Shown here: piece by piece, positions 5,187-35,618 of the stretch | Layout of the letters: each line of letters starts with the position of its first letter | Numbering within the stretch: the first letter of the stretch is position 1 | From: Prolixibacteraceae bacterium | Lineage (GTDB): Bacteria > Bacteroidota > Bacteroidia > Bacteroidales > Prolixibacteraceae | Reading direction: 5' to 3' | DNA: 36,387 nucleotides | Assembly (NCBI GenBank): GCA_018648265.1 | Contig: JABGRN010000055.1 | Location: forward strand, 1-36,387 | Program-made: the position numbers and the translations under genes | Notes under the pieces: model-generated | The model's database searches: none | Seen by the model: only the letters and a program-made list of their open reading frames with translations | What the model was told of the DNA's origin: nothing

Positions 5187-6533
5187 CTAACAATACTCCG
5201 GAACTTCTTCGTACACTTTCTCCGTAAATGTAATTCCGTAATTTTTTAATTCATTTAAAACAAGTTCATAAATATTTTTATGCGTTGGAATGTACATTCC
5301 TTTCAAATTCAATTTTCCGGTTAATACTAATTTTGCTGCAATTGCCAATGGCAAACCTACTGTTTTCGACATGGCAGTGTGCTCGCTATTTTCTCCGATA
5401 ACTGCAAGCGAACTGGTAAGTTTTACTTTTTTGTTGAGACTTGAATCGTGGTAGATAAATTTATGCCACATCACAATCATATCTTTATCATCGGACTGAA
5501 GTTGCCACTTTTGTTTTAAAATGTGTTCCAATACTTGTGCCGGCGTTGCGCGTTTTAGCCTAATTTTGGTGTCATCGAAAATACCCAGCCAATTTAATTT
5601 ATAGATAATATCCGAATCCTGATCGATGTGCATCGCACGATACAATTTCAAATCCACCGAATCGGTTGACTGAAAATATAGAAATGAATTAATGAACTCG
5701 CAATTTGTCATGTTTTCGATATTCTCCAAATAATAAGAATCGTCGGTTGCACCCAATTGAACAAACACATCCCATGCACGGCAATAGCCAGGACGGCGTA
5801 GTGTTCCACGAAAAATTGTGGGAATTCCCTGCAAATTGTATTTTTCGATGTAGTTAAGCGAATCCCGGTTTGCATAACCTTCAAACATGCCAAAACCTTC
5901 AATGTCAATAATTTCTGTTCTTCTGAAAAGCCGGTTATACGGAATATATTTAAACTTGCCATTTTGAATAAATTTTGCCGGTCCGTCTTGTCCAGCGAGA
6001 ACTACATTTCTCGGGTTCCAGCTAAATTTATAATTCCACGGATTGTTATCCGATTCAGGCGCAACCAGCCCGCCTGTAAAAGATTCGAAACATTGCAAAT
6101 CGTGACCTTCCTTTTTAATTTCGTCGATTATCTTCATTGCCGACATGTGATCGAGTCCGGGATCTAAACCACATTCATTTAAAAAGAAAAGGCCCTTTTT
6201 TAGCACATCCTGCTCAAAAGTTTTTAATTCTTTTGTTTCATAGGAAGCGGTTAGCAGGTTTTTTGAAAACGTCACACAAGACTGTGCCACAAATTTATGA
6301 AAACGAGCGGGTAACATTGAAATTACCAAATCGGCATTTTTTACCTCTGAGTCACGGGCAAGCTCATCTTTTACATCCAAAATCGAGTAACTGATTCTTG
6401 AATGATCTTCTTTCCCATTTACTTGAACATCAACAACTTTTATCTTCCAATTAAATTCATTGGCATTGTCGGAGAGATATTTAATTAATGTGTTACTTGA
6501 ACGACCCGCTCCGAAAATTAAAATATTTTTCAT
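5187..6533 (-). CDS. Saccharopine dehydrogenase, L-glutamate-forming (Lys9-type)
   Basis: A 448-residue NAD(P)-dependent oxidoreductase close in length to yeast Lys9 (about 446). In the catabolic direction it splits saccharopine into L-glutamate and 2-aminoadipate 6-semialdehyde. The Rossmann motif GAGRSS is at residues 8-13. Lys9-family blocks are clear: NECGLDPGLDHM (119-130), GGLVAPESDNNPWNYKFSW (154-172), and further on GYANRDSL and FRGTLRRPGY. The lysine-ketoglutarate reductase half found fused in animal AASS is absent, so saccharopine must be made by a protein encoded elsewhere. It is the last gene of the cluster, 361 bases after the ALDH7 gene that would oxidise its product. That pairing makes the saccharopine route a firm reading rather than a generic 'saccharopine reductase' label. 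Confidence 0.9.
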   Translation of the reverse strand: MKNILIFGAGRSSNTLIKYLSDNANEFNWKIKVVDVQVNGKEDHSRISYSILDVKDELARDSEVKNADLVISMLPARFHKFVAQSCVTFSKNLLTASYETKELKTFEQDVLKKGLFFLNECGLDPGLDHMSAMKIIDEIKKEGHDLQCFESFTGGLVAPESDNNPWNYKFSWNPRNVVLAGQDGPAKFIQNGKFKYIPYNRLFRRTEIIDIEGFGMFEGYANRDSLNYIEKYNLQGIPTIFRGTLRRPGYCRAWDVFVQLGATDDSYYLENIENMTNCEFINSFLYFQSTDSVDLKLYRAMHIDQDSDIIYKLNWLGIFDDTKIRLKRATPAQVLEHILKQKWQLQSDDKDMIVMWHKFIYHDSSLNKKVKLTSSLAVIGENSEHTAMSKTVGLPLAIAAKLVLTGKLNLKGMYIPTHKNIYELVLNELKNYGITFTEKVYEEVPEYC

Positions 6534-6894
6534 TCTGTACTTATTACAATCTTATATTTTACATTGATAATAATTTCACGCTTCAGCCCTTTCAGGGCTT
6601 TATTCACGTTGAGCATTTCTACATAGGGCTTTGCCCTATGCTTTTAACTTTCGCCCCGTTGGGGCAATCTTTTTCAACTGTTTGTTAAATATTTTGATCC
6701 AATAATCTTCCTTTTTTATAGGTTGAACAAACATGCTAAATATTATTCAAAAACATTTATAGTTTTCGTGTGTCTGATAAGAAAATTCCAAGAATGAGGC
6801 TTTCGCAGTTTTGAAAATAAGGAGTTTACTATTGTAATCGACTGTTTTCAAAACAAGAGTAACGAAATTATTGGGATTTGCTTGCAGACATGAG
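6534..6894. repeat. Intergenic spacer with three consecutive hairpins
   Basis: There is no gene in this 361-base gap between the ALDH7 and saccharopine dehydrogenase genes. It carries three short perfect inverted repeats: AGCCCTTTCAGGGCT (6585-6599), CATAGGGCTTTGCCCTATG (6622-6640) and GCCCCGTTGGGGC (6653-6665). The remainder (6670-6894) is AT-rich with no pattern I can name. The cluster of hairpins resembles mobile or spreading palindromic cassettes of Bacteroidota, and in the mRNA it would form a string of stems between two co-oriented genes. Confidence 0.7.
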
Positions 6895-8424
6895 TTAAAC
6901 GTTAAACTCTATTCCTTGCGCAAGAGGAAGTTCAGTTCCGTAGTTAATTGTATTTGTTTGTCGGCGCATGTATGCTTTCCATGCATCGGAACCGGATTCC
7001 CGTCCGCCGCCAGTCTCCTTTTCACCACCAAAAGCACCACCAATCTCAGCTCCCGAAGTACCAATATTTATATTTGCAATTCCACAATCAGAACCTTCTT
7101 GCGAAAGGAATTTTTCTGCCTCCAACATATTTGTTGAAAACAATGCCGATGACAAACCTTGTGGTACATCGTTTTGAATTCGAATTGCTTCTTCCAAATC
7201 GGTGTATTTTATCAAATATAAAAGTGGCGCGAAAGTCTCTTCCTGAACAATCTCGAAATGATTCTCCACCTCGGCAATACATGGATTTACGAAACAACCA
7301 GATTCGAAGCCTTCTCCTTCTAAAGACTCGCCACCAACTATAATTTTACCACCTTCAGCTTTAACTTTTTCTATTGAATTCTGAAAATCCTGAACAGCAT
7401 ATTTGTCAACTAGCGGACCAACCAATGTTTTAGAATCGAGTGCATTCCCAATTGGCAACTTCTTGTAAATAGCTACTAATTTTTGTTTGATTTCCTCATA
7501 AATTGAGGTGTGAACAATTATTCTTCGTGTTGATGTGCAACGTTGTCCGCAAGTACCAACAGCACCAAAAACCACGGCTCGAAGTGCCATTTCCATGTCA
7601 GCATTTGGCGTAATAATTATTGCGTTGTTACCTCCCAATTCCAAAATAGACCTTCCCAGACGTTCGCCAACCAAACGACCTACTTTTTTTCCAATTGGTG
7701 TTGAGCCAGTAAACGAAATTAAAGGAACATCTTTATTGCTGAAGAATTCGTCGCCTAAATCTCTAGAACTTGCAATAACTAAATTCAAAACTCCTTCGGG
7801 CACATCGTTTTCTTTTAAAACATTTGCAACAATATTGTGTACAGCCACCGCGCACAACGAAACTTTCGACGAAGGTTTCCAAACAACAACATCGCCAGCA
7901 ATTAAGGCAATCATTGCATTCCATGCCCAAACCGCCACCGGAAAATTAAATGCCGAAACAACACCAACAATTCCAAGCGGGTGATATTGGTCGTACATCC
8001 GGTGTTTTTCGCGTTCTGAGTGCATAGTAAATCCATACAACTGACGCGATTGGCCAACTGCAAAATCGCAGATGTCAATCATTTCTTGCACTTCACCCAA
8101 ACCTTCCTGGTAAATTTTACCCATTTCGTAGGATACCAATTTTCCCAGGGGCTCTTTGTATTTTCGAAGTTCCAATCCAATTAGCCTCACAATTTCGCCA
8201 CGTTTTGGAGCGGGAACCATTCGCCACTTTTCAAAAGCCCCTTTTGCGGTATCAATTATTTCTTTGTAATCTTTTGGAGTTGCCAGATTTATTTCTGCAA
8301 TTAATTTACCATCCGAAGGCGAAAATGATTGAATTGCTTTTCCCTCTGTTTCTTTCCAATTCGTTCCTGTACTTGCACCGCTATTTACTTTTCCGATGCC
8401 TAATTCTTTTAATACTTCGTTCAT
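6895..8424 (-). CDS. ALDH7-family 2-aminoadipate 6-semialdehyde / piperideine-6-carboxylate dehydrogenase
   Basis: A 509-residue aldehyde dehydrogenase of the antiquitin (ALDH7A1/AmaB) type, which oxidises 2-aminoadipate 6-semialdehyde (in equilibrium with piperideine-6-carboxylate) to 2-aminoadipate using NAD+. Seen are the oxyanion Asn160 (SAFNFP), SFTGSTPIGKKVG (about 237-249), general base Glu262 in LELGGNN, and nucleophile Cys296 in GTCGQRCTSTRR. The C-terminal block TSGAEIGGAFGGEKETGGGR followed by ESGSDAWK and MRR is diagnostic of ALDH7 and separates it from generic succinate-semialdehyde or betaine-aldehyde dehydrogenases. It lies upstream of the Lys9-type saccharopine dehydrogenase and downstream of a 3-oxoadipyl-CoA thiolase, linking lysine degradation to the rest of the cluster. 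Confidence 0.92.
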   Translation of the reverse strand: MNEVLKELGIGKVNSGASTGTNWKETEGKAIQSFSPSDGKLIAEINLATPKDYKEIIDTAKGAFEKWRMVPAPKRGEIVRLIGLELRKYKEPLGKLVSYEMGKIYQEGLGEVQEMIDICDFAVGQSRQLYGFTMHSEREKHRMYDQYHPLGIVGVVSAFNFPVAVWAWNAMIALIAGDVVVWKPSSKVSLCAVAVHNIVANVLKENDVPEGVLNLVIASSRDLGDEFFSNKDVPLISFTGSTPIGKKVGRLVGERLGRSILELGGNNAIIITPNADMEMALRAVVFGAVGTCGQRCTSTRRIIVHTSIYEEIKQKLVAIYKKLPIGNALDSKTLVGPLVDKYAVQDFQNSIEKVKAEGGKIIVGGESLEGEGFESGCFVNPCIAEVENHFEIVQEETFAPLLYLIKYTDLEEAIRIQNDVPQGLSSALFSTNMLEAEKFLSQEGSDCGIANINIGTSGAEIGGAFGGEKETGGGRESGSDAWKAYMRRQTNTINYGTELPLAQGIEFNV

Positions 8425-8504
8425 TTTTGTCTGTTTTATTTATAATTTATGTTATTGTCTTCTATTCTTTCAAATTACTATTTTATCTCTTTTTAATTGC
8501 ACCA

Positions 8505-8645
8505 TGCTTTAGCTTGGTTTTTATACAACCAGGTGCTGAATTCTGGCTTTAGCCTTAAATTTTTCTTTTAATATCTTTAACTATTAACGGCTAAAGCCGT
8601 GTTTATTTTGCTTTCATCATCACCGCCCTAAAGGACGGTGCTAAA
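8505..8645. repeat. Hairpin cassette between thiolase and ALDH7 genes
   Basis: The gap contains ACGGCTAAAGCCGT (8587-8600), a perfect inverted repeat, and CACCGCCCTAAAGGACGGTG (8621-8640), an inverted repeat with one mismatch. A looser CCATGCTTTAGCTTGG-type stem lies around 8512-8518. It sits between two genes of one cluster, as do similar elements at 6585-6665 and 9930-9959. Confidence 0.65.
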
Positions 8646-8664
8646 CAGATTCTCATTAAATAAT

Positions 8665-9867
8665 TTAAACCTTTTCCAGCACCATTGAAATTCCTTGTCC
8701 AACACCAATGCACATTGTACAAAGTGCATATTTTGAATCGGAATTTTGCAACTGATAATAAGCTGAAGTTATCAATCTGGCTCCCGACATTCCCAGTGGA
8801 TGCCCTAAAGCAATGGCTCCTCCCAGCGGATTTATTCTTTTATCGTCATCGTCTAAACCAAGCTCGCGGATACAGGCAAGAGCCTGTGATGCAAATGCTT
8901 CATTTAATTCAATAATCCCCATTTCGTCAAGTGACATTCCCAGTCGCTTTAGTAATTTTTTTGTAGCGGGTACTGGCCCAATTCCCATAATACGGGGTGG
9001 GACTCCTGCTGCTTGCGTTCCTAAAATTTTAGCTTTTGGGGTCAAATTGTACTTTTTAACGGCTGCTTTCGAAGCCAATATAATTGCAGCCGCTCCATCG
9101 TTGATTCCCGAGGCATTACCTGCCGTAACTGTTCCATTTTCCCTTGTTACAGGTTTCAAAGTAGCAAGTTTTTTTGTTGACGATAAACGGGGATGTTCAT
9201 CTTTGTCAACAATAATTGGTTCTCCTTTTCTCTGTGGAACTGGAACGGGGATAATTTCATTTGAAAGTTTACCATTTTTTTGAGCTTTTGCCGCTTTCAA
9301 CTGGCTATTGTGCGCAAAGTAATCCTGGTCTTCCCGGCTTATATTATATTCATCAGCCAGATTTTCTGCGGTTTCTATCAACGGGTCTGTTCCAAATACA
9401 TTCTGGAATTTTTTATTTACAAATCTCCAACCAATGGTTGTATCATATATTTCTGCAGCTCTTGAAAATGCTGAAGTTGCCTTTGGCATTACTAATGGCG
9501 CCCTCGACATACTTTCAACACCGCCGGCAATAATAAGATCTGCTTCGCCCGACATAATTGTTCTTGCTGCCATTCCTACAGCTTCCATGCCGGAGCCGCA
9601 TAAACGGTTTACGGTAACACCAGAAACAGTTTCCGGAAAACCTGCCAACAAAAGTGACATACGGGCAACATTCCGATTGTCCTCGCCAGCTTGATTCGCA
9701 CAACCATATATCACATCGTCAATGGCAACCTTGTCAATTTGTGGATTTCTTTCAATTAAAACCTTCATAGGAATAGCTCCTAAATCATCTGTTCGTACCG
9801 ATGAAAATTCCCCACCGTATTTTCCAACAGGAGTTCGTATCGCGTCACAAATAAAAACTTCATTCAT
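8665..9867 (-). CDS. pcaF: 3-oxoadipyl-CoA thiolase (PcaF/PaaJ type)
   Basis: A 400-residue thiolase that would cleave 3-oxoadipyl-CoA with CoA to succinyl-CoA and acetyl-CoA. The nucleophile is Cys90 (NRLCGSG), with His356 in GHPLGMSGA and Cys386 in CTMCIGVGQG. Two blocks are, from memory, hallmarks of PcaF/PaaJ rather than AtoB/PhaA thiolases: GCANQAGEDNRNVARM (about 55-70) and DTTIGWRF (about 142-149). The start MNEVFICDAIRTP at 9867 is chosen because it aligns with PcaF; the frame extends to 9930, but that part reads through a hairpin cassette. No aromatic-degradation genes are nearby, so the substrate 3-oxoadipate must arise another way. The neighbouring aminomutase, transaminase and PcaIJ-type CoA-transferase give such a source. 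Confidence 0.9.
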   Translation of the reverse strand: MNEVFICDAIRTPVGKYGGEFSSVRTDDLGAIPMKVLIERNPQIDKVAIDDVIYGCANQAGEDNRNVARMSLLLAGFPETVSGVTVNRLCGSGMEAVGMAARTIMSGEADLIIAGGVESMSRAPLVMPKATSAFSRAAEIYDTTIGWRFVNKKFQNVFGTDPLIETAENLADEYNISREDQDYFAHNSQLKAAKAQKNGKLSNEIIPVPVPQRKGEPIIVDKDEHPRLSSTKKLATLKPVTRENGTVTAGNASGINDGAAAIILASKAAVKKYNLTPKAKILGTQAAGVPPRIMGIGPVPATKKLLKRLGMSLDEMGIIELNEAFASQALACIRELGLDDDDKRINPLGGAIALGHPLGMSGARLITSAYYQLQNSDSKYALCTMCIGVGQGISMVLEKV

Positions 9868-9929
9868 ATCTTTTAATTTTTTTGTACCCCCCGTTCTCGC
9901 CTCATCCCGCCAAGCGGTCTTGCGGCTCA

Positions 9930-9959
9930 AACTGTCCCCCTCAATTGAGGGGGACAGTT
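9930..9959. repeat. Perfect 30-bp palindrome upstream of the thiolase start
   Basis: The sequence begins AACTGTCCCCCTCAA and continues as its exact reverse complement. It is followed by a second small stem, AACGGCTCGACCGT (9971-9984). The element lies in the 288-base gap between the aminotransferase and the thiolase start, where it could terminate, pause or stabilise the transcript, or be a binding site. The remainder of the gap (10000-10155) is AT-rich with nothing recognised. Confidence 0.75.
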
Positions 9960-10155
9960 GAGGACAGTGGAACGGCTCGACCGTGACACTTCCAAAACAG
10001 GGGGTAACTTGATTTAATTATCATACAGTATGCAATAATTATTTTGCCTTAAATATTTCATCTCATCATAATTATATTTTTTAAAAGTATTCAATGGAAC
10101 TCGCAGAATAATGATTCTCCTGTGTGCCAATATTTGCCATACTCGTTTCATATTA

Positions 10156-11493
10156 TCAATTATATAATTCTTCAATTTTAGGTTTAAGAGCTTTAAATGC
10201 ATTCAGCAAACCTTCTGTTAGTTTGTCTATTTCTTTTTGTGTCATTACAGTTGAAAGCATGCAGGAAAATGTATTTATCATTAGAATATTTTCCTTACAA
10301 TACATGAAATCAAGAAGTTCTTTTATTACATCATTAACTTCTTTAGTCTGATATGTTTCGCGATATGTATTCGGCGGTGTTGACCTCAAATGCATTCGAA
10401 ACATTGAACCGGCTCCGGTAATTGAGACCGGCACATCAACAAGCTTTATAACCTCATGAATCTGGTTAATGGCTTTTTGGGTCAAGGCATTTAATTTCTG
10501 AACTGCCTCGCTGTCGAAAAATTCCATGGCTTTGTAACCGGCTGTCATTGTAATAGGATTAGCTGAGAAAGTTCCGGAATGAGGGAATAATATTTTTCTT
10601 TGATGGGGGTCGAAAACTTTCATCACATCGGCCCTGCCCGCAACAGCTCCTACAGGGAAACCACCCCCAATTATTTTACCCATAGCAGTTAAATCGGGCT
10701 TTACCGAATAGTTTTCCTGTGCTCCCCCATAATTAACTCTTAAAGTAATTACTTCGTCGAATACAAGCAAAGCTCCGTTTTTACGGGTCCAGCTATAAAT
10801 TGCTTCAATAAACTCACTCTTTCCGGGTATCAGCCCAACTCTGTGAGGTACTGGATCGATAAGCACACAAGCAATTTGGTCTGCCTGCTTGTCAAGAATG
10901 GCAATTGTTCTCTCAATATCATTATATGGAAAAACAATAACATTATCTATAACCGCATTAGGTGTTCCATGAGCAAGCGCTACACTTGTAGGGCTATCAA
11001 TATCGCCCCAGTTTGATGGATTTGAAGTCTGGCTAACTTCGGCAAAATCGTAAGTGCCATGATATGTTCCTTCAGCTTTAGCAATTTTCGATCTTCCGGT
11101 ATAAGCTCTTGATGCTTTTATCATTGCCATAACCGCTTCAGTTCCCGAATTAACAAACCTTATTCTTTCAAGTCCCTTTACCCTTTCGGTTAGAAGTTGT
11201 GCAAAAGCCACTTCAATTTCAGAAGCCAGTGTATAGGCTGTTCCTTTTTGAAGTTGTTCGGCAACGGCATTAATTACCGGAGGATATGAATGACCATGGA
11301 TAAGTGCTGCCATATTGTTTGCAAAGTCAGTGCGAACATTGCCTTCTACATCGGTTATATAACACCCATTTGCTGTATTGGCATAATGAGGATGTGGTTT
11401 ACGAAAAATTGTATTCCTACTCACGCCTCCTATTATTACCTTTCTTGCCTGCTTGTATATCTCTTCGCTTTTATTGTTTTTGGACATGACCAT
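10156..11493 (-). CDS. Class III PLP aminotransferase, GSAM-fold; proposed 3-aminoadipate (beta-amino acid) transaminase
   Basis: A 445-residue fold-type I PLP enzyme related to glutamate-1-semialdehyde aminomutase and to beta-amino acid transaminases such as beta-phenylalanine aminotransferase. PLP contacts are visible: SGTEA (116-120), Asp246 in FDEV, the Schiff-base Lys273 in AMGKIIGGGFP, and HSGTFSANP (305-313). Arg26 in GGVSRNTIF lies where beta-phenylalanine aminotransferase has its substrate-carboxylate Arg (by-eye alignment). It starts 5 bases after the CoA-transferase beta subunit, in a tight four-gene block with the aminomutase. Its place between an enzyme that makes beta-amino acids and one that activates beta-keto acids points to beta-amino to beta-keto conversion, here 3-aminoadipate to 3-oxoadipate. 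It is unlikely to be HemL because of this context. ATG at 11487 is an alternative start. Confidence 0.82.
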   Translation of the reverse strand: MVMSKNNKSEEIYKQARKVIIGGVSRNTIFRKPHPHYANTANGCYITDVEGNVRTDFANNMAALIHGHSYPPVINAVAEQLQKGTAYTLASEIEVAFAQLLTERVKGLERIRFVNSGTEAVMAMIKASRAYTGRSKIAKAEGTYHGTYDFAEVSQTSNPSNWGDIDSPTSVALAHGTPNAVIDNVIVFPYNDIERTIAILDKQADQIACVLIDPVPHRVGLIPGKSEFIEAIYSWTRKNGALLVFDEVITLRVNYGGAQENYSVKPDLTAMGKIIGGGFPVGAVAGRADVMKVFDPHQRKILFPHSGTFSANPITMTAGYKAMEFFDSEAVQKLNALTQKAINQIHEVIKLVDVPVSITGAGSMFRMHLRSTPPNTYRETYQTKEVNDVIKELLDFMYCKENILMINTFSCMLSTVMTQKEIDKLTEGLLNAFKALKPKIEELYN

Positions 11494-11498
11494 CAGCT

Positions 11499-12167
11499 TT
11501 AACTACCTTCTTTTGCAAGGCTTAATTTCGCTTCCGTGTTTTGTTGTAAATATTTAAAAGTTACCTCTGGGGCAAGTTCTCTTACAACTAATTCCTTATT
11601 AATTACATCAATAATGGCAAGGTTTGAGTAAATCCGACTAACAACATTTTTCCCGGTAAGCGGGTAAGTACATTGTTTTACAATTTTGGATTCACCAGAT
11701 TTGGTGCTATGTTTTGTTATCACAAATATGGTTTTAACACCGGCTACCAAATCCATTGCACCTCCCACGGCAGGTATATCATTCGAATTTCCCGTTGACC
11801 AATTGGCAATGTCTCCTTCTTCAGAAACCTGATAAGCGCCAAGTACACAAATATCAATATGTCCACCCCGAATCATGGCAAAACTGTCGGCATGATGAAA
11901 ATATGCTGCACCTGGAATGGCGGTTACATACTTTTTCCCTGCATTAACAAGCTCCGGATCTTCAGTACCAATATTTGCTGTTTTTCCCATTCCAAGTAAA
12001 CCATTTTCGGTATGATAGATAACTTCACGGCCTTCAGGAATAAAACCGGCCACAAGTTCAGGCATTCCAATTCCAAGGTTTACATATGCCCCATCGTTAA
12101 TATCCATAGCTACTTTCTGCGCCATCTCAGTTACACTCCACCCAATATTTTTATTATTTAATTCCAT
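11499..12167 (-). CDS. pcaJ: 3-oxoadipate CoA-transferase, beta subunit (PcaJ-type)
   Basis: A 222-residue beta subunit of a family I CoA-transferase. With the alpha subunit it would move CoA from succinyl-CoA to 3-oxoadipate. The catalytic Glu is Glu54 in TENGLLGMG, which carries the gamma-glutamyl-CoA intermediate. YVNLGIGMP (28-36), FHHADSFAMIRGGHID, IPAVGGAMDL and CTYPLTG...VSRIY resemble PcaJ more than ScoB/AtoA (comparison from memory). Its start overlaps the end of the alpha subunit gene by 10 bases, typical of translationally coupled subunits. Related enzymes act on acetoacetate, so substrate assignment leans on the PcaF-type thiolase in the same cluster. Confidence 0.87.
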   Translation of the reverse strand: MELNNKNIGWSVTEMAQKVAMDINDGAYVNLGIGMPELVAGFIPEGREVIYHTENGLLGMGKTANIGTEDPELVNAGKKYVTAIPGAAYFHHADSFAMIRGGHIDICVLGAYQVSEEGDIANWSTGNSNDIPAVGGAMDLVAGVKTIFVITKHSTKSGESKIVKQCTYPLTGKNVVSRIYSNLAIIDVINKELVVRELAPEVTFKYLQQNTEAKLSLAKEGS

Positions 12168-12874
12168 GGGTACCTCCTTTTTTCTTCAACAAGTTTCGAC
12201 TCATCAGCCGGATTGGTGATTTCCACAACGCGCTTTACAAATATCCCCGGAGTAATAACACATTCGGGATCGATCTCGCCAACATCAAGGATATTCTTTG
12301 CCTGAACAATTGTCGTTTTTGCCGCCATACACATTATTGGCCCAAAATTTCTGGCTGTTTTATTGTAAATAAGATTGCCATATTTATCAGATGCCGAACA
12401 CTTTACAAAAGAGAAATCGGCTTCAATTGCGTGTTCTAAAACGTAAGTTTTATCATTAAAAACACGTTTATCTTTTCCTTCGGCAAGAGGAGTATTAACC
12501 GATGTTTGCGTGAAAAATGCAGGTATTCCTGCTCCAGCTGCCCTTATTCTTTCAGCAAGAGTTCCCTGTGGAACCAGTTCCAGCTCGATTTCACCCTTGC
12601 GGTACAGTTCTGGAAAAACCACTGAAATGGCGGTTCTGGGAAATGAACAAAAAATTTTCCTAACCTGCTTATTCTCTATAAGAGCCGCAAGACCAACATG
12701 CCCACTTCCGGCATTATTGCTAACAATGGTGAGGTTTTTGGCACCCTGATCAACCAAAGCATGGATCAGTTCAATTGGGCTACCTGCTTCACCAAAACCG
12801 CTAATCATTACAGTTGCACCGTCAAAAATATCGGCCACCGCCTCCTTTGCTGATTTGTATATCTTGTTAATCAT
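12158..12874 (-). CDS. pcaI: 3-oxoadipate CoA-transferase, alpha subunit (PcaI-type)
   Basis: A 238-residue alpha subunit of a family I CoA-transferase, with the Gly-rich GFGEAGSP at 26-33, SNNAG, CSFPR, LVPQGTLAERIRAAGAGIP and TARNFGPIM-MAAKT blocks. The SNNAG and CSFPR segments match my recollection of PcaI, whereas ScoA has other residues there. It forms the heterodimer half that binds CoA; the catalytic Glu is on the beta subunit, whose gene overlaps by 10 bases. It begins 6 bases after the aminomutase stop, so aminomutase, CoA-transferase and aminotransferase are almost certainly one transcript. Confidence 0.88.
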   Translation of the reverse strand: MINKIYKSAKEAVADIFDGATVMISGFGEAGSPIELIHALVDQGAKNLTIVSNNAGSGHVGLAALIENKQVRKIFCSFPRTAISVVFPELYRKGEIELELVPQGTLAERIRAAGAGIPAFFTQTSVNTPLAEGKDKRVFNDKTYVLEHAIEADFSFVKCSASDKYGNLIYNKTARNFGPIMCMAAKTTIVQAKNILDVGEIDPECVITPGIFVKRVVEITNPADESKLVEEKRRYPWN

Positions 12875-12880
12875 TAATTA

Positions 12881-14452
12881 TTACATCTTATTTATTTCCG
12901 ATTCCAAAGCTTCAGAAAGTTTGTTTTCAATTTCAATTAACTCATCTTCATAAAAATATTTATCGGTGCCGAATGGTTTTAATTTTTCGATGGTATTTTC
13001 TTTTTCGTCATATTTTGCAAAAAATACCCTATCCATCCATTTCATGTTTCTAGCTTCGTTAAACTTTAACACAAACACTTTTTCTCCGTTAATTTCTGCC
13101 GTTCCCAACAACGATGTTTTCCCTGCAGAAGAGGTCATTGTTATATACCTTGACGGACGGTTTATCGATGCAAGTTCTCTGTAAATTTTGCTGAATATTT
13201 TTGTGATATCAGCCAATGGAGCTGTAAAATAATGGTGTTCGCCTGTTGGCCTGGCACAATACATAGAATGAAACCCTACGCCCAAAACAGCAAAAATATT
13301 CCCTAGGTCTATCCAGTTTTGGGCAGTTTTATCAACATCAACCTTTCCATTTTCGTCATAAAATAAGCTGAAATGATTCATTATCGGGCTCTGGCTTTTT
13401 ACTGTAATCCCATATTTCTTTAAACGCCTGATTGCAGCCAGTGCACCCGGATTTAAAACCTCATTTGGCGTTGATAAATGCGCCACCCAAACCACCTGAA
13501 TCCCGTTATCAATAAGCTTCTGCCATAATTCCAATATTTTTTTGAACTCATTACTCAGAATCAATTCCGGATGAAATGTAATCGCCCTTGAACCAATACG
13601 GAAAGTTTTAATGTGCAATAAATCCGGATCGTCTAACAAAGGCTCAACATACTCCGAAAGGCGCTCGAATGAAATATGCGCTCCATCGCCGCCGGTAATT
13701 AAAATATCGCTTATTTCTTTATGTTTTTTTAAGTAATTATGCACCTGGCCCACATCCCGCTGAACAAACATATCTTCATCCCCTCTTACCTGAGCATGCC
13801 TGAAACAATAAGTACAAAAGGCAAAGCAGCTCTGAGTAGTTTTATCAAAAATCAGTTTTATGGGAGGGTATTTATGCTGACTTCCCAATAAAATTTCCAA
13901 TTGTCCTTCGTCGTTTTTGTACCAGGGTTTATTCAGTTTTTGCTTGCCATCGTGTGGGTTTGTTTTTTTCTGATAATCTTCAACAATCGTCTTCTTTTCT
14001 TCATCAGTTTTAGCATCGATATACTTTTTAACTTCCTGGTGTTTAATCATTCCAGGTTGGGGAAATATTAGCTGATAAAGCGGATCCTTTTTATAATTGC
14101 TCCAGTCGATTGCATTCAAAACATACTTAGTTGCAAGAAACCTGTAAACTTCTATAAAAAACTCGCGATCTTTTAAATGGCCTATATCAATTCCATGGTC
14201 TTTGAGTTTTCCAACAATCTCCCGAAAACCTTTTAATCCCGAATAATTAGTCTTGTCGGTAAAAATAGCTTCATCAGAATTTAAAAATCCTGAATATTCT
14301 GGATAACTGGAATGAAGCCTTTTTATTAGTCCTGGTGGAAGTAAGTTCTCATTCACAATATTATTTATTGTTTCAGAACTAAGATTATATCTCACCATCA
14401 TTTTCTGAATATCAGATGGTTCCACATTTATTTTTTTATCCTGCAAATTCAT
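12881..14452 (-). CDS. KamA-family radical SAM aminomutase; proposed 2-aminoadipate 2,3-aminomutase
   Basis: A 523-residue radical SAM, PLP-dependent aminomutase. Cys209-x3-Cys213-x2-Cys216 binds the [4Fe-4S] cluster, TGGD (253-256) contacts SAM, Arg218 sits where KamA Arg134 holds the substrate carboxylate, and Lys445 in SSAGKTSLLG is the PLP lysine. Clostridial KamA is about 416 residues, so this protein has an extra ~90 residues in front and a longer tail. By eye, KamA Asp293 and Asp330, which bind the lysine epsilon-amino group, fall at Ala400 (next to Arg401 in YCARPTG) and Thr438. A lysine substrate is therefore unlikely; glutamate 2,3-aminomutase also changes these two sites, to Lys and Asn. 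With saccharopine-pathway enzymes making 2-aminoadipate and PcaIJ/PcaF using 3-oxoadipate, 2-aminoadipate is the natural candidate. First gene of the cluster. Confidence 0.87.
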   Translation of the reverse strand: MNLQDKKINVEPSDIQKMMVRYNLSSETINNIVNENLLPPGLIKRLHSSYPEYSGFLNSDEAIFTDKTNYSGLKGFREIVGKLKDHGIDIGHLKDREFFIEVYRFLATKYVLNAIDWSNYKKDPLYQLIFPQPGMIKHQEVKKYIDAKTDEEKKTIVEDYQKKTNPHDGKQKLNKPWYKNDEGQLEILLGSQHKYPPIKLIFDKTTQSCFAFCTYCFRHAQVRGDEDMFVQRDVGQVHNYLKKHKEISDILITGGDGAHISFERLSEYVEPLLDDPDLLHIKTFRIGSRAITFHPELILSNEFKKILELWQKLIDNGIQVVWVAHLSTPNEVLNPGALAAIRRLKKYGITVKSQSPIMNHFSLFYDENGKVDVDKTAQNWIDLGNIFAVLGVGFHSMYCARPTGEHHYFTAPLADITKIFSKIYRELASINRPSRYITMTSSAGKTSLLGTAEINGEKVFVLKFNEARNMKWMDRVFFAKYDEKENTIEKLKPFGTDKYFYEDELIEIENKLSEALESEINKM

Positions 14453-31467: not shown

Positions 31468-32598
31468 ATGTATTTTTTAAACGGAGATCGATTATATATA
31501 AAACCTGAAAACGGAAAGGCCAAACTCGATGTACAGTTGCAAAATTGTTTGCAGCAGTTGAAACAGATCAATTCAGGCAAAAAAATTTTTAAACTGAATT
31601 TTTTTGTTGATACGGTTACCGACAAAGCTTATCAGGAACTTCAGCAGAAAGTCCAGTCCCTCGTATCTGGTTTGTTTTCAGAAGAAATTGTTCTGGGTTT
31701 AATTGCCCAGCCGCCGCTTACCTGCAAAATTATTGTTGAAGCCTTCTTTTACGATACTTCACTTTGGCAGGCGAAATTTATTTCAGAAGGGAATAATGCA
31801 GCACTTTTGTTTAGCAGGGATAACACGGAAATATTAATTGGCAGCGTGCAGGCAAACCTTAAACAAGGTTGCAAAAAAAACGCAGAAAACACTTTTGTAG
31901 TTTTAGATTCAATTTTTAATTCGGTAGGTTTTCCTGTAAATTCAATTGTAAGGCAGTGGAATTATCTTGAGGATATTTTGGGTTTTGATGGTGAAGATCA
32001 GCATTATCAGGAATTTAATAATGTGCGATCGAAATTTTATGGAAATAGTTTTGAAGAATCCGGCTACCCCGCTGCTACCGGAATTGGGATGAACCAGGGT
32101 GGGCTGATTATTGAATTTGTAGCCGTAAAATCAGGTGAGGTGCTTACTTTCCCGGTTGACAATCCCGACCAGATAGCAGCGCATCATTATAGTAAAAAAG
32201 TGTTGGTTGGCGAGGAATGTGTAATTAAGACCACACCAAAATTCGAGCGTGCGAGGTATTTAAATTCGTTTGGGAAACAGTTGATTTTTATTTCCGGAAC
32301 AGCCTCAATTTTGGGTGAAAAAACAGTCGGTATCGGAAACCCCGAAGAGCAAACTGAAGTTACAATAAATAATATTCAACGTTTGTATTCCAGTAAGGTA
32401 ATAAAGAAAATCTCAGAAAAGACCCTTAGCCCAAAATATGGCCATGCAAGGGTTTATATTAAAAAACGGGAAGATTTCCCAACCATTAAAAAAGTGTTTA
32501 AAACTCATTTTGGCAATCTTCCGGTAGTTTATATTGTGGCCGATATTTGCCGCACTAATTTGCTTGTAGAAATAGAAGGCAAAGTAATCCTGAACTAA
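31468..32598 (+). CDS. Chorismatase/RidA-like protein (FkbO/Hyg5/XanB2 relatives)
   Basis: A 376-residue protein that looks like two RidA (YjgF)-like domains in tandem: residues ~33-170 (FKLNFFVDTV, LIAQPPLTCKIIVEAFFY) and ~180-376. The second domain carries NNVRSKFY (184-191), GYPAATGIGM (199-208), Glu216, and the closing ADICRTNLLVEIEG with Arg362, Glu368 and Glu370. This is the layout of chorismatases, which hydrolyse chorismate to hydroxybenzoates or dihydroxy-dienoates. In Bacteroidota such proteins feed aryl-polyene/flexirubin or dialkylresorcinol pigments, but no such genes are nearby. It could instead be a non-enzymatic or other RidA-superfamily member. It stands alone between two repeat-rich gaps. 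Confidence 0.55.
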   Translation: MYFLNGDRLYIKPENGKAKLDVQLQNCLQQLKQINSGKKIFKLNFFVDTVTDKAYQELQQKVQSLVSGLFSEEIVLGLIAQPPLTCKIIVEAFFYDTSLWQAKFISEGNNAALLFSRDNTEILIGSVQANLKQGCKKNAENTFVVLDSIFNSVGFPVNSIVRQWNYLEDILGFDGEDQHYQEFNNVRSKFYGNSFEESGYPAATGIGMNQGGLIIEFVAVKSGEVLTFPVDNPDQIAAHHYSKKVLVGEECVIKTTPKFERARYLNSFGKQLIFISGTASILGEKTVGIGNPEEQTEVTINNIQRLYSSKVIKKISEKTLSPKYGHARVYIKKREDFPTIKKVFKTHFGNLPVVYIVADICRTNLLVEIEGKVILN

Positions 32599-32870: not shown

Positions 32871-35312
32871 TTAAAATTTAAAATTAAGCCCAAATATAAA
32901 ATGAGTGCCTGCCTGCGGAAAATAACCATCCATTTTATATCGTTCGCCGCCCAAAATGTATGAATAAACCCAGGCGTTGCTTTCGTAGATTTCGTTGAAT
33001 AAATTATTTACCATTAAATGAACTGTTATTTCTTTAAATAATTTTGTGCCAAAGGAATATGCCGCATTTAAATTATTTACAAAGTAAGCATCCAGAATAC
33101 GATCTTCACTCGATGAATTATCGATAAATTGTTTTCCAACAAAAGATGAAATAAAACGTAAACTCAGGTTTTTTACCGGTTCAAAAATTAGTTGGCTGTT
33201 GGCAACAATGTTTGGCGAAAAAGCCAAATCGGTGGTTCCCAGTTTATAACTTTCCTGTCCCCATGTATCCCAGTTATCAAGATGTTCAGTAAAATAGAGA
33301 ATTTTATTTTGGCTGAATGTGCTATTTCCTGTCCATTGTAAAGTGCGGGTTATTTTAAGCCCTGCCTGAAGCTCAAAACCTGTCCGGTAGCTTTTATCTA
33401 CATTTGCCATAATTGGTGCTCCCACATCGTTAATTTCGCCGGTTAAAACCAACTGGTTTTTATAACACATGTAATAAAAATTGGCACTTGCAGTAAAAGC
33501 CGGTGAGCGGAAATTATACCCCAGTTCCCAGTCGCGCAAAGTTTCGTAAACCGGCTGATTTCCATCAGGATCGGCATCGGTATAATTGCCACGGTTGGGT
33601 TCGCGGTTGGCAATAGCAAACGAAAGGTACAAATTCTGATTGGGGCCTGCCTGATAAAAAATACCCACTTTTGGATTAAAAAAGTTAAAATCATGTTCCT
33701 GCGAAATATTCCTCAAATCATCGTCAATCCCATTAATTTCATAATTAATTTTTCTAAACTGGAGATCGGCGAATAAATTAAGTTTTCGTGTTAGTGCATA
33801 ATTGTATTTGGCAAATACATTAAAGTCTTTTTTTAAACCATTGTTTTGATACCAATTGTGGTTGAAGTCGGCATTTCCTAAAAACTGCGCCCAAATAATT
33901 TTTCCAAAATGATCCCCATCGTAAATGCTCCAGCCACCCCCAAAAGTAAAATCGCCGTTTTTGTTTTTGTGGTTTAGCGAATAAGTAATTCCGTAGAAAT
34001 CATTGTCCAGCCATTTTCGGTTTACCAAATCAGTAGTTTCAATAATTTCCTGGCCCACTGTTATATTCTGAATTTGGTAATCGGCAAGGTCTTCGCCCGC
34101 TTTAAAATTTTCGTAATATCCTTTACCGTGGGTAAAATGTGCCGAGGCATTTAAATTAAAATATTGATTGAATTTATGCGAGAAATGAAATTGATAATGA
34201 TCTTGCTGATAATTATCTACCTGGTTTTCGAAAGTATAGAAATTGTAAGTCCGGCTGTCGGAATTAATCATTTCGCTGGTTTGCCTGGGCGAATACAACC
34301 AATGTTCTTCGTAGCGTTTCATTCCACTTAAATCGTTATTTAAGCGCACCGACGGGACACCATTCCACGATTGGTATGTTTCTTCAAAACCCGAAAACAC
34401 ATTTACTTTTATAACTGTATTTTCTGAATAAAAACCGCCGGACACAAAAAACGATTTCAGGTCAGAAAAAGCGCGATCGACAAAGCCATCTGACGAAACC
34501 TTCGACAGGCGGGCATCGAGGGTAAATCTGTTGTTTAACAAACCTGTTCCGGCAGAAACGGTATTTTTAAAAGTATTGAATGTACCGAAAGCCGTTTTAT
34601 ATTCGGCGTAGGCATCTTTTTTTAAGGTGTTTGTTTGCATATTTAGTGTGGCCCCAAAAGCAGCCGCCCCGTTTGTCGATGTTCCCACACCCCGCTGGAT
34701 CTGAATATTTTCTAAGGAAGAAGCCAGATCGGGCAGATCGACAAACCAGGTTCCATGCGACTCGGCATCATTCACCGGGATTCCGTTTATGGTAACATTC
34801 ACCCGGTTCATATCGGTTCCGCGAATCCTGAAATTTGTATAACCAACACCTGCCCCGGCATCTGAAGTAGCCACAAACGAAGGACTTAATTGTAATAAAT
34901 ATGGAATATCCTGTCCAGTATTTCGTGAATCAATTTCATCGGACGAAATTGTGGAATAAGTAAACGGGGTTTTTTCTTTAACCCTTGTTGCGGCCACTAG
35001 TATTTCGCCTGTCATTACAACATTTGGTACCAACTCAATTTTTATTTGCCGATTGGAATTTAGATTTATTTTTAACTCATTGGTTTCAAAACCAACAAAT
35101 GAGATTTTAATAATGTAATCTCCGGCTTTTAAGTTTTTAAATTCAAAAGACCCGTCACTTTTTGTGGAAATTCCAATAAAAGTATTTTCGATTATTACAC
35201 TTGCACCGGGTAGTGGTTCCCCGTTCCCGGTAACAATCCCTTTTAAGTTAAATTGTGCGTAAACAACAATAACCATTAACTGCAAAAGCAGTATCAAATT
35301 TAATTTTTTCAT
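32871..35312 (-). CDS. TonB-dependent receptor, probable thiamin(-precursor) transporter
   Basis: An 813-residue outer-membrane TonB-dependent receptor. A signal peptide (LNLILLLQLMVIVVYAQ) precedes a carboxypeptidase-regulatory-like beta-sandwich (about 22-100; GIVTGNGEPLPGASVIIENT), a plug domain (about 105-215; SFVATSDAGAGVGYTNFRIR, VNVTINGIPVNDAESHGTWF) and a 22-strand barrel ending in THFIFGLNFKF. No SusD-like gene accompanies it, unlike glycan receptors. A TPP riboswitch lies just upstream on the same strand, so it should be made when thiamin pyrophosphate is scarce; TPP-controlled receptors of this kind in Bacteroidota are taken to import thiamin. The ATG at 35312 gives the cleanest signal peptide; 35333 is an alternative. 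Confidence 0.9.
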   Translation of the reverse strand: MKKLNLILLLQLMVIVVYAQFNLKGIVTGNGEPLPGASVIIENTFIGISTKSDGSFEFKNLKAGDYIIKISFVGFETNELKINLNSNRQIKIELVPNVVMTGEILVAATRVKEKTPFTYSTISSDEIDSRNTGQDIPYLLQLSPSFVATSDAGAGVGYTNFRIRGTDMNRVNVTINGIPVNDAESHGTWFVDLPDLASSLENIQIQRGVGTSTNGAAAFGATLNMQTNTLKKDAYAEYKTAFGTFNTFKNTVSAGTGLLNNRFTLDARLSKVSSDGFVDRAFSDLKSFFVSGGFYSENTVIKVNVFSGFEETYQSWNGVPSVRLNNDLSGMKRYEEHWLYSPRQTSEMINSDSRTYNFYTFENQVDNYQQDHYQFHFSHKFNQYFNLNASAHFTHGKGYYENFKAGEDLADYQIQNITVGQEIIETTDLVNRKWLDNDFYGITYSLNHKNKNGDFTFGGGWSIYDGDHFGKIIWAQFLGNADFNHNWYQNNGLKKDFNVFAKYNYALTRKLNLFADLQFRKINYEINGIDDDLRNISQEHDFNFFNPKVGIFYQAGPNQNLYLSFAIANREPNRGNYTDADPDGNQPVYETLRDWELGYNFRSPAFTASANFYYMCYKNQLVLTGEINDVGAPIMANVDKSYRTGFELQAGLKITRTLQWTGNSTFSQNKILYFTEHLDNWDTWGQESYKLGTTDLAFSPNIVANSQLIFEPVKNLSLRFISSFVGKQFIDNSSSEDRILDAYFVNNLNAAYSFGTKLFKEITVHLMVNNLFNEIYESNAWVYSYILGGERYKMDGYFPQAGTHFIFGLNFKF

Positions 35313-35365
35313 TTTTAGAAATTTGGTTATCAACTAACCAATGGAGTGGGACGGATCCCTTTTTG

Positions 35366-35442
35366 CTTTCCCTACGCCGGCATTATCCGGATCAGGTTTT
35401 GTGAGTATAATCTCAGCCCTAATTTTATTAGGCACCCCCATT
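35366..35442 (-). promoter_or_regulatory. TPP (thiamin pyrophosphate) riboswitch
   Basis: On the minus strand the conserved THI-box parts occur in order: GGGGGTGCC, GGGCTGAGA, CCTGATCCGGATAATGCCGG and CGTAGGGAA. These are the pyrimidine- and pyrophosphate-sensing helices. The element lies about 54 bases before the receptor start; TPP binding would be expected to reduce expression through termination or start-site masking. A small stem-like region (35341-35365) follows the aptamer and could be the expression platform. Confidence 0.95.
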
Positions 35443-35618
35443 GCATAAAATATCATCGCAAAGTTAAAATGGTTTTTCGATTTGGCAAAAATTTATTTCT
35501 CCTTAAAAAAACCACCTGACTTGCTGGTACTTATTTTTTTTGGCAATGCCTGAGTTTGTTTATTAGATTGAATGATGAATTTGGATTAAGGAATGGGGAT
35601 TTGTGAAGTAAAACTGAA

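Follow-up and report, generated by a model that had tools for sequence, protein, structure and literature searches.

A bacterial gene cluster that probably channels lysine into the beta-ketoadipate pathway by way of a putative 2-aminoadipate 2,3-aminomutase

Which metabolic function is served by a gene cluster combining enzymes of saccharopine-type lysine degradation, a radical S-adenosylmethionine (SAM) aminomutase and the last enzymes of the beta-ketoadipate pathway? This question is raised by positions 5187..14452 of contig JABGRN010000055.1 (assembly GCA_018648265.1) from a Prolixibacteraceae bacterium, of which the whole analysed stretch of 36,387 nucleotides is referred to as the window. 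Judged by its gene content, the cluster quite probably specifies a catabolic route from lysine to succinate and acetyl-CoA that avoids decarboxylation and proceeds via a 2-aminoadipate 2,3-aminomutase. All seven cluster genes are located on the minus strand. Read in their own direction, they encode the KamA-like radical SAM/pyridoxal phosphate (PLP) aminomutase MUT (12881..14452; 523 aa), proposed to act on 2-aminoadipate and recognized by family, fold and the residues C209/C213/C216, R218 and K445; the CoA-transferase subunits A (CTA, PcaI/ScoA family, 12158..12874) and B (CTB, PcaJ/ScoB family, 11499..12167); AT, a class-III aminotransferase of the glutamate-1-semialdehyde aminomutase (GSAM) fold (Aminotran_3, 10156..11493), proposed as 3-aminoadipate transaminase; the 3-oxoadipyl-CoA thiolase PcaF (THL, 8665..9867); the 2-aminoadipate-6-semialdehyde/piperideine-6-carboxylate dehydrogenase ALDH7 (6895..8424); and SDH, an L-glutamate-forming saccharopine dehydrogenase of the Lys9/AASS-SDH type (5187..6533). 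For THL, the ATG at 9867 is the likely start rather than the TTG at 9930, to which the open reading frame (ORF) stays open (8665-9930). Co-orientation and families of the seven genes had been stated in a preliminary description of this DNA, and Pfam and NCBIfam scans agree with them.

In the proposed pathway, lysine and 2-oxoglutarate would give saccharopine by lysine-ketoglutarate reductase (LKR), SDH would release 2-aminoadipate semialdehyde and glutamate, and ALDH7 would convert the semialdehyde to 2-aminoadipate. As the new step, MUT would then rearrange 2-aminoadipate to 3-aminoadipate. Subsequently, AT, acting as a GSAM-fold beta-transaminase with a keto acid, would form 3-oxoadipate, CTA/CTB would produce 3-oxoadipyl-CoA and succinate from 3-oxoadipate and succinyl-CoA, and THL would cleave 3-oxoadipyl-CoA with CoA to succinyl-CoA and acetyl-CoA. 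Since 3-oxoadipate and CoA would thus give net succinate and acetyl-CoA, the six carbons of lysine would be kept; we infer this accounting, every substrate, above all that of the mutase, and the sequence in which transamination and CoA transfer take place. The preliminary description had arranged the enzymes in the same order, and as an inference this is supported: the order fits all families, LKR is encoded in the genome, the core is complete in most related loci, and lysine genes join it in three branches of the mutase tree, as detailed below. Regarding its claim of a gene set leading from saccharopine to the tricarboxylic acid (TCA) cycle, the seven genes are indeed present, but the saccharopine-forming LKR lies outside the window on another contig of the source genome (G000:C153:54642-55847). 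Among solved structures, it is closest to the LKR part of mitochondrial AASS (E 2.4e-39), and LKR, SDH and ALDH7 would jointly account for the conversion of lysine to 2-aminoadipate. The source genome showed no lysine 2,3-aminomutase match at 1e-100. It also encodes a second Lys9-type protein (G000:C30:3146-4444), which is 36% identical to SDH of the window and of the type adjoining LKR in locus L040 and genomes G406 and G407. The preliminary description knew of no pathway with the mutase step, and in searches confined to open-licence PMC papers neither the route nor 3-aminoadipate as a metabolite was found described.

SDH matches AASS-SDH/Lys9 over its full length (E 6.6e-64, residues 2-438 of 448; Sacchrp_dh_C, 251 bits), its best matches in the PDB being mitochondrial AASS and saccharopine reductase; the NCBIfam scan at 0.001 gave no match for this protein. 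ALDH7 passed the curated equivalog cut-off of the L-piperidine-6-carboxylate dehydrogenase model NF050084 (802 bits, cut-off 730), and THL that of the pcaF equivalog TIGR02430 (670 bits, cut-off 597), with the beta-ketoadipyl-CoA thiolase 6pca as second-best PDB match. Against the PcaF model, each of the 16 thiolases scanned reaches E<=1e-170, the bit score being given for the window gene alone. CTA and CTB exceed the cut-offs of the pcaI/scoA and pcaJ/scoB models, which are both subfamily-level (TIGR02429, 348 bits versus 128.5; TIGR02428, 296 bits versus 243.6). In the genome search, THL was the single match to the PcaF model and CTA the single match to the PcaI/ScoA model. For AT, the best PDB match is 6k8h (StoTA; E 1.8e-113), which according to excerpts of PMC10589169 transaminates both beta- and gamma-amino acids, R36 being suggested as the residue that binds the carboxylate of the substrate. 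R26, N60, K273 and T308 of AT, corresponding to Arg36, N70, K282 and T317 of StoTA in the 6k8h alignment numbering, are invariant in 18 of 18 sequences. The pathway order proposed earlier gains support from the PcaF matches and from the use of beta-amino acids by the best solved relative of AT. A HemL (glutamate-1-semialdehyde aminomutase) role was considered for AT and rejected, as the protein carries the beta-transaminase residues and its score of 339 bits is below the TIGR00713 cut-off of 527.3.

MUT itself scores under the cut-off of every aminomutase model matched, among them the KamA-family model TIGR00238 (73 bits, cut-off 199), the lysine 2,3-aminomutase equivalog TIGR03820 (58.8 bits, cut-off 525.4) and the glutamate 2,3-aminomutase model TIGR04368 (53 bits, cut-off 650). 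Its Pfam Radical_SAM score is likewise below threshold (21.5 versus 29.5 bits), which is why the Pfam genome search did not list it. When its AlphaFold model was compared with PDB chains, E<=0.001 was reached only by two chains of 2a5h, lysine 2,3-aminomutase, and profile-profile alignment widens the match between MUT and 2a5h to residues 86-451. All 20 mutases compared, MUT among them, carry C209/C213/C216, R218 and K445, which align with the cluster cysteines (CxxxCxxC), Arg134 and Lys337 of lysine 2,3-aminomutase, where Arg134 is the carboxylate arginine and Lys337 the PLP lysine. Asp293 and Asp330 of that enzyme bind the side-chain amine of lysine. The Asp330 position, 438 in MUT, is occupied by T in 13 and by S in seven of the 20 mutases, and Asp293 corresponds to A400 in the profile alignment or R401 in the MAFFT alignment, so that neither aspartate is aligned in any of the 20. 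Replacement of both speaks against lysine as substrate; on these residues and the TIGR03820 score, a plain lysine 2,3-aminomutase identity was rejected. Rows LAM_L119 and LAM_L122, which were in wrong reading frames, were left out of the MAFFT alignment, and the correct frames were used in the later residue comparison.

Contigs of genomes were scanned, which yielded 18 MUT relatives. The set counted here comprises 20 clade-A loci, window included; L010 and L011 were left out as they hold the same genes as L065 and L066, and L056 was excluded for its broken mutase, while its genome (G412) is counted among the 21 genomes. The broken copy, in a metagenome-assembled genome (MAG) of Alteromonadaceae, was matched in separate pieces (L056:10001-11754). 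Clade-A hosts are found among Bacteroidota, Cloacimonadota, Ignavibacteria, Neomarinimicrobiota, Sumerlaeaceae and Shewanella, in an Aliivibrio MAG and in an Alphaproteobacterium. In the phylum of the window, 46 of 395 genomes gave MUT matches at E<=1e-20: the window's genome, two more at 66-71% identity, and 43 holding only a 33-39% paralog or fragments. Among 398 genomes of Pseudomonadota, the phylum of G405, only G405 itself matched at E<=1e-120. Of the 20 loci, 16 contain the whole core in the order MUT-CTA-CTB-AT-THL. Among the incomplete cores, those of L041 and L044 break off where the contig ends, L054 is without THL in the locus, and L049 shows MUT-AT-ALDH7 followed by a lysine dehydrogenase-like gene, with no CTA, CTB or THL within its 16 kb. 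Over the 16 loci, distances between core proteins correlate with r 0.72-0.91, and none of 2000 permutations reached values as high.

A second clade of KamA-like paralogs (clade B; G000:C57:15015-16205 and loci L012-L038) comprises proteins of about 420-470 aa with 33-39% identity to MUT. Of the 395 genomes of the window's phylum, 45 carry such paralogs, either intact or fragmentary. They lack the lysine-binding Asp, an Arg precedes their D/N/E-T-G motif, and core genes are absent from all six neighbourhoods listed. A plasmid search for MUT relatives returned 92 records, all below 60% identity. One of them, on an Amycolatopsis plasmid (L126:4137-16341), is a 28.6% relative annotated as lysine 2,3-aminomutase; together with its neighbours, namely Glu/Leu dehydrogenase, CoA ester lyases, MaoC dehydratases and a CoA-transferase, it looks like another mutase-fed CoA pathway. 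On a Rhodococcus plasmid (L127:7899-14693), a mutase relative accompanies a saccharopine-dehydrogenase-type protein and monooxygenases, with ATP-grasp genes nearby, perhaps as a biosynthetic cluster.

The link to lysine is provided by neighbouring genes. In six of the 20 loci, genes leading from lysine to 2-aminoadipate adjoin the mutase cluster or are one gene away. SDH and ALDH7 follow THL in the window, L039, L042 and L055, which form one branch of the mutase tree (support 87/84). In L040, SDH and LKR are located upstream of the mutase cluster with one peptidase-like gene between, whereas in L049 ALDH7 follows AT and precedes a 358-aa saccharopine-dehydrogenase-family protein with PH1688 (3abi), presumably a lysine dehydrogenase, as best solved relative; the protein is taken as lysine-6-dehydrogenase-like. 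These six loci thus represent three separate mutase-tree branches and three gene sets, and since different enzymes for the same precursor adjoin the same mutase, this is the strongest evidence for 2-aminoadipate as substrate. At the genome level, LKR (E<=1e-60) was matched in 11 of the 21 genomes and SDH (E<=1e-80) in exactly these 11, LKR, SDH and ALDH7 being co-oriented neighbours away from the core in G406 and G407. ALDH7 exceeds its cut-off in 12 of 21 genomes; because 196 of the 395 genomes in the window's phylum have it too, its mere presence is uninformative and was dropped as support. Intradiol dioxygenase (PF00775) was not matched in 20 of 21 genomes, the source genome included, which counts in favour of the proposed route; aromatic catabolism by intradiol cleavage was rejected for the source genome (other aromatic routes were not searched).

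Several results weigh against the proposed lysine route. No lysine gene accompanies the mutase in 14 of 20 loci, two of which (L041 and L044) stop at a contig end within the cluster; consistent absence of ALDH7 and SDH, which the preliminary description had named as refuting, is contradicted by the six linked loci, yet these 14 remain. The main weakness is the source of 2-aminoadipate in seven of the 20 intact-mutase genomes, mostly MAGs, which show no LKR (E<=1e-60), SDH (E<=1e-80) or cut-off ALDH7: three Shewanella, the Aliivibrio MAG, Ignavibacteria, Sumerlaeaceae and one Cloacimonadota. Weak SDH-family matches were seen in G397 and G399, and G396 has LKR and SDH with no ALDH match. Furthermore, most clade-A relatives are MAGs in which binning errors are possible, and the core distance correlation is partly due to shared ancestry. 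Direct sequence homology between MUT and 2a5h is confined to residues about 181-363, and the AlphaFold model (pLDDT 76, pTM 0.82) is poor at 166-229 and 402-407; its 425 columns aligned with 2a5h give a TM-score of 0.45-0.46 by query, an rmsd of about 10 and 16-17% identity. The alignment at Asp293 is uncertain by one residue, and Arg401 is common to the paralog clade, being kept by 29 of 29 distinct clade-B rows and three plasmid relatives. It was therefore dropped as proof of 2-aminoadipate, and the residues of MUT do not separate this substrate from glutamate. Moreover, the closest PDB relatives of CTA are succinyl-CoA:3-ketoacid types; together with the subfamily level of the models, this means that CoA-transferase specificity rests on context, and the enzyme could act on acetoacetate instead of 3-oxoadipate.

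If MUT acted on glutamate, 3-aminoglutarate and 3-oxoglutarate would be formed, and the lysine genes would be bystanders only yielding glutamate. This is consistent with a residue pattern that suits any acidic side chain, with the release of glutamate by SDH and with the existence of a glutamate 2,3-aminomutase; however, the PcaF type, seen in 16 of 16 thiolases scanned, fits a C6 dicarboxylate, the TIGR04368 score is far below its cut-off, and the ALDH7 linkage would be left unexplained, which makes glutamate very unlikely. Slightly more remote still is lysine itself, which a lysine 2,3-aminomutase would turn into beta-lysine and, via 6-amino-3-oxohexanoate and thiolysis, into 4-aminobutyryl-CoA and acetyl-CoA. 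Although MUT belongs to the KamA family and this reading would suit those genomes in which ALDH7, LKR and SDH have no strong match, the missing aspartates, the TIGR03820 score, the PcaF equivalog and the ALDH7/SDH linkage argue against it. That the lysine genes adjoin an unrelated module by chance, as the unlinked loci might suggest, appears the least probable of all, given linkage in three branches with three gene sets.

Within the proposed lysine route, a different order is conceivable: the CoA-transferase would first convert 3-aminoadipate to 3-aminoadipyl-CoA, from which AT would form 3-oxoadipyl-CoA. CoA transfer before transamination changes the order and not the new mutase step, and this variant is covered by the likelihood given to the route. 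In its favour, the hemL-like class-III aminotransferase Kat, known from lysine fermenters, requires a CoA thioester (3-aminobutyryl-CoA) according to excerpts of PMC3149608, and excerpts of PMC10589169 describe free beta-keto acids as unstable. We nevertheless regard it as unlikely, since 18 of 18 sequences retain the Arg proposed to bind the carboxylate in StoTA, the best solved relative of AT works on free beta-amino acids, and the CoA-transferase is of 3-oxoacid type.

Concerning cluster architecture, gaps of 240-361 bp part AT, THL, ALDH7 and SDH in the window, so a single transcript is hypothetical. The corresponding gaps in L042 are <=30 bp (measured from ORF starts). Short GC-rich palindromes (6622-6640 and 8587-8600) lie in the window gaps 6534-6894 and 8425-8664, which, compared with L042, are perhaps inserted repeat elements. 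Promoter-like sites numbered 35 (30.4 expected, sd 4.9) and terminator-like sites 14 (8.8 expected, sd 3.4), and neither count contributed to the interpretation. Elsewhere in the window, a thiamine pyrophosphate (TPP) riboswitch (35353-35449, minus strand) precedes a TonB-dependent receptor gene (32871-35333), probably encoding a thiamine-regulated outer-membrane transporter, and an FkbO/Hyg5-like chorismatase-family protein is encoded at 31468-32598.

Each of the closest known systems supplies part of the cluster. MUT shares fold, CxxxCxxC cluster, PLP lysine and carboxylate Arg with lysine 2,3-aminomutase (KamA/AblA; 2a5h), but is about 100 residues longer, has both lysine-binding Asp replaced and falls far under the TIGR03820 cut-off. 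Glutamate 2,3-aminomutase, reportedly described by Ruzicka and Frey in 2007 and said to have lost the two aspartates too, shares with the proposed MUT reaction both the 2,3 amino shift and an acidic substrate, whereas the expected substrate of MUT is one carbon longer. LKR, SDH and ALDH7 lead to 2-aminoadipate as in the saccharopine pathway. In its known form, saccharopine-type catabolism continues by 2-oxoadipate and glutaryl-CoA, loses two CO2 and ends in acetyl-CoA; here, this continuation would be replaced by the proposed mutase step. The last two steps and their enzyme families are those of the beta-ketoadipate pathway (PcaIJF), but 3-oxoadipate would derive from an amino acid, not from aromatic rings. 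The Kat variant of lysine fermentation, found in Cloacamonas and a Bacteroidetes genome, likewise uses a KamA-type mutase, a hemL-like beta-transaminase, a CoA-transferase and a thiolase on lysine; as outlined in excerpts of PMC3149608, it differs in running via beta-lysine, 3,5-diaminohexanoate and 3-aminobutyryl-CoA, without saccharopine, ALDH7 or 3-oxoadipate. None of lysine 2,3-aminomutase, the Kat route, the saccharopine pathway and the beta-ketoadipate pathway supplies the join.

We consider it probable that a lysine pathway built on a 2-aminoadipate 2,3-aminomutase, apparently spread between phyla, joins the beta-ketoadipate pathway and turns lysine into TCA intermediates with its six carbons kept. 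The proposal hinges on one enzyme, MUT, and is directly testable. If true, a long-known amino-acid pathway would gain a new ending, radical aminomutases would gain a further substrate, and a source of 3-aminoadipate would be at hand; genes like those at present labelled lysine 2,3-aminomutase and GSAM would have their annotation corrected. For the organisms concerned, lysine would be returned as C4 and C2 units without oxidative decarboxylation, a feature that would be well matched to growth under anaerobic or TCA-limited conditions.

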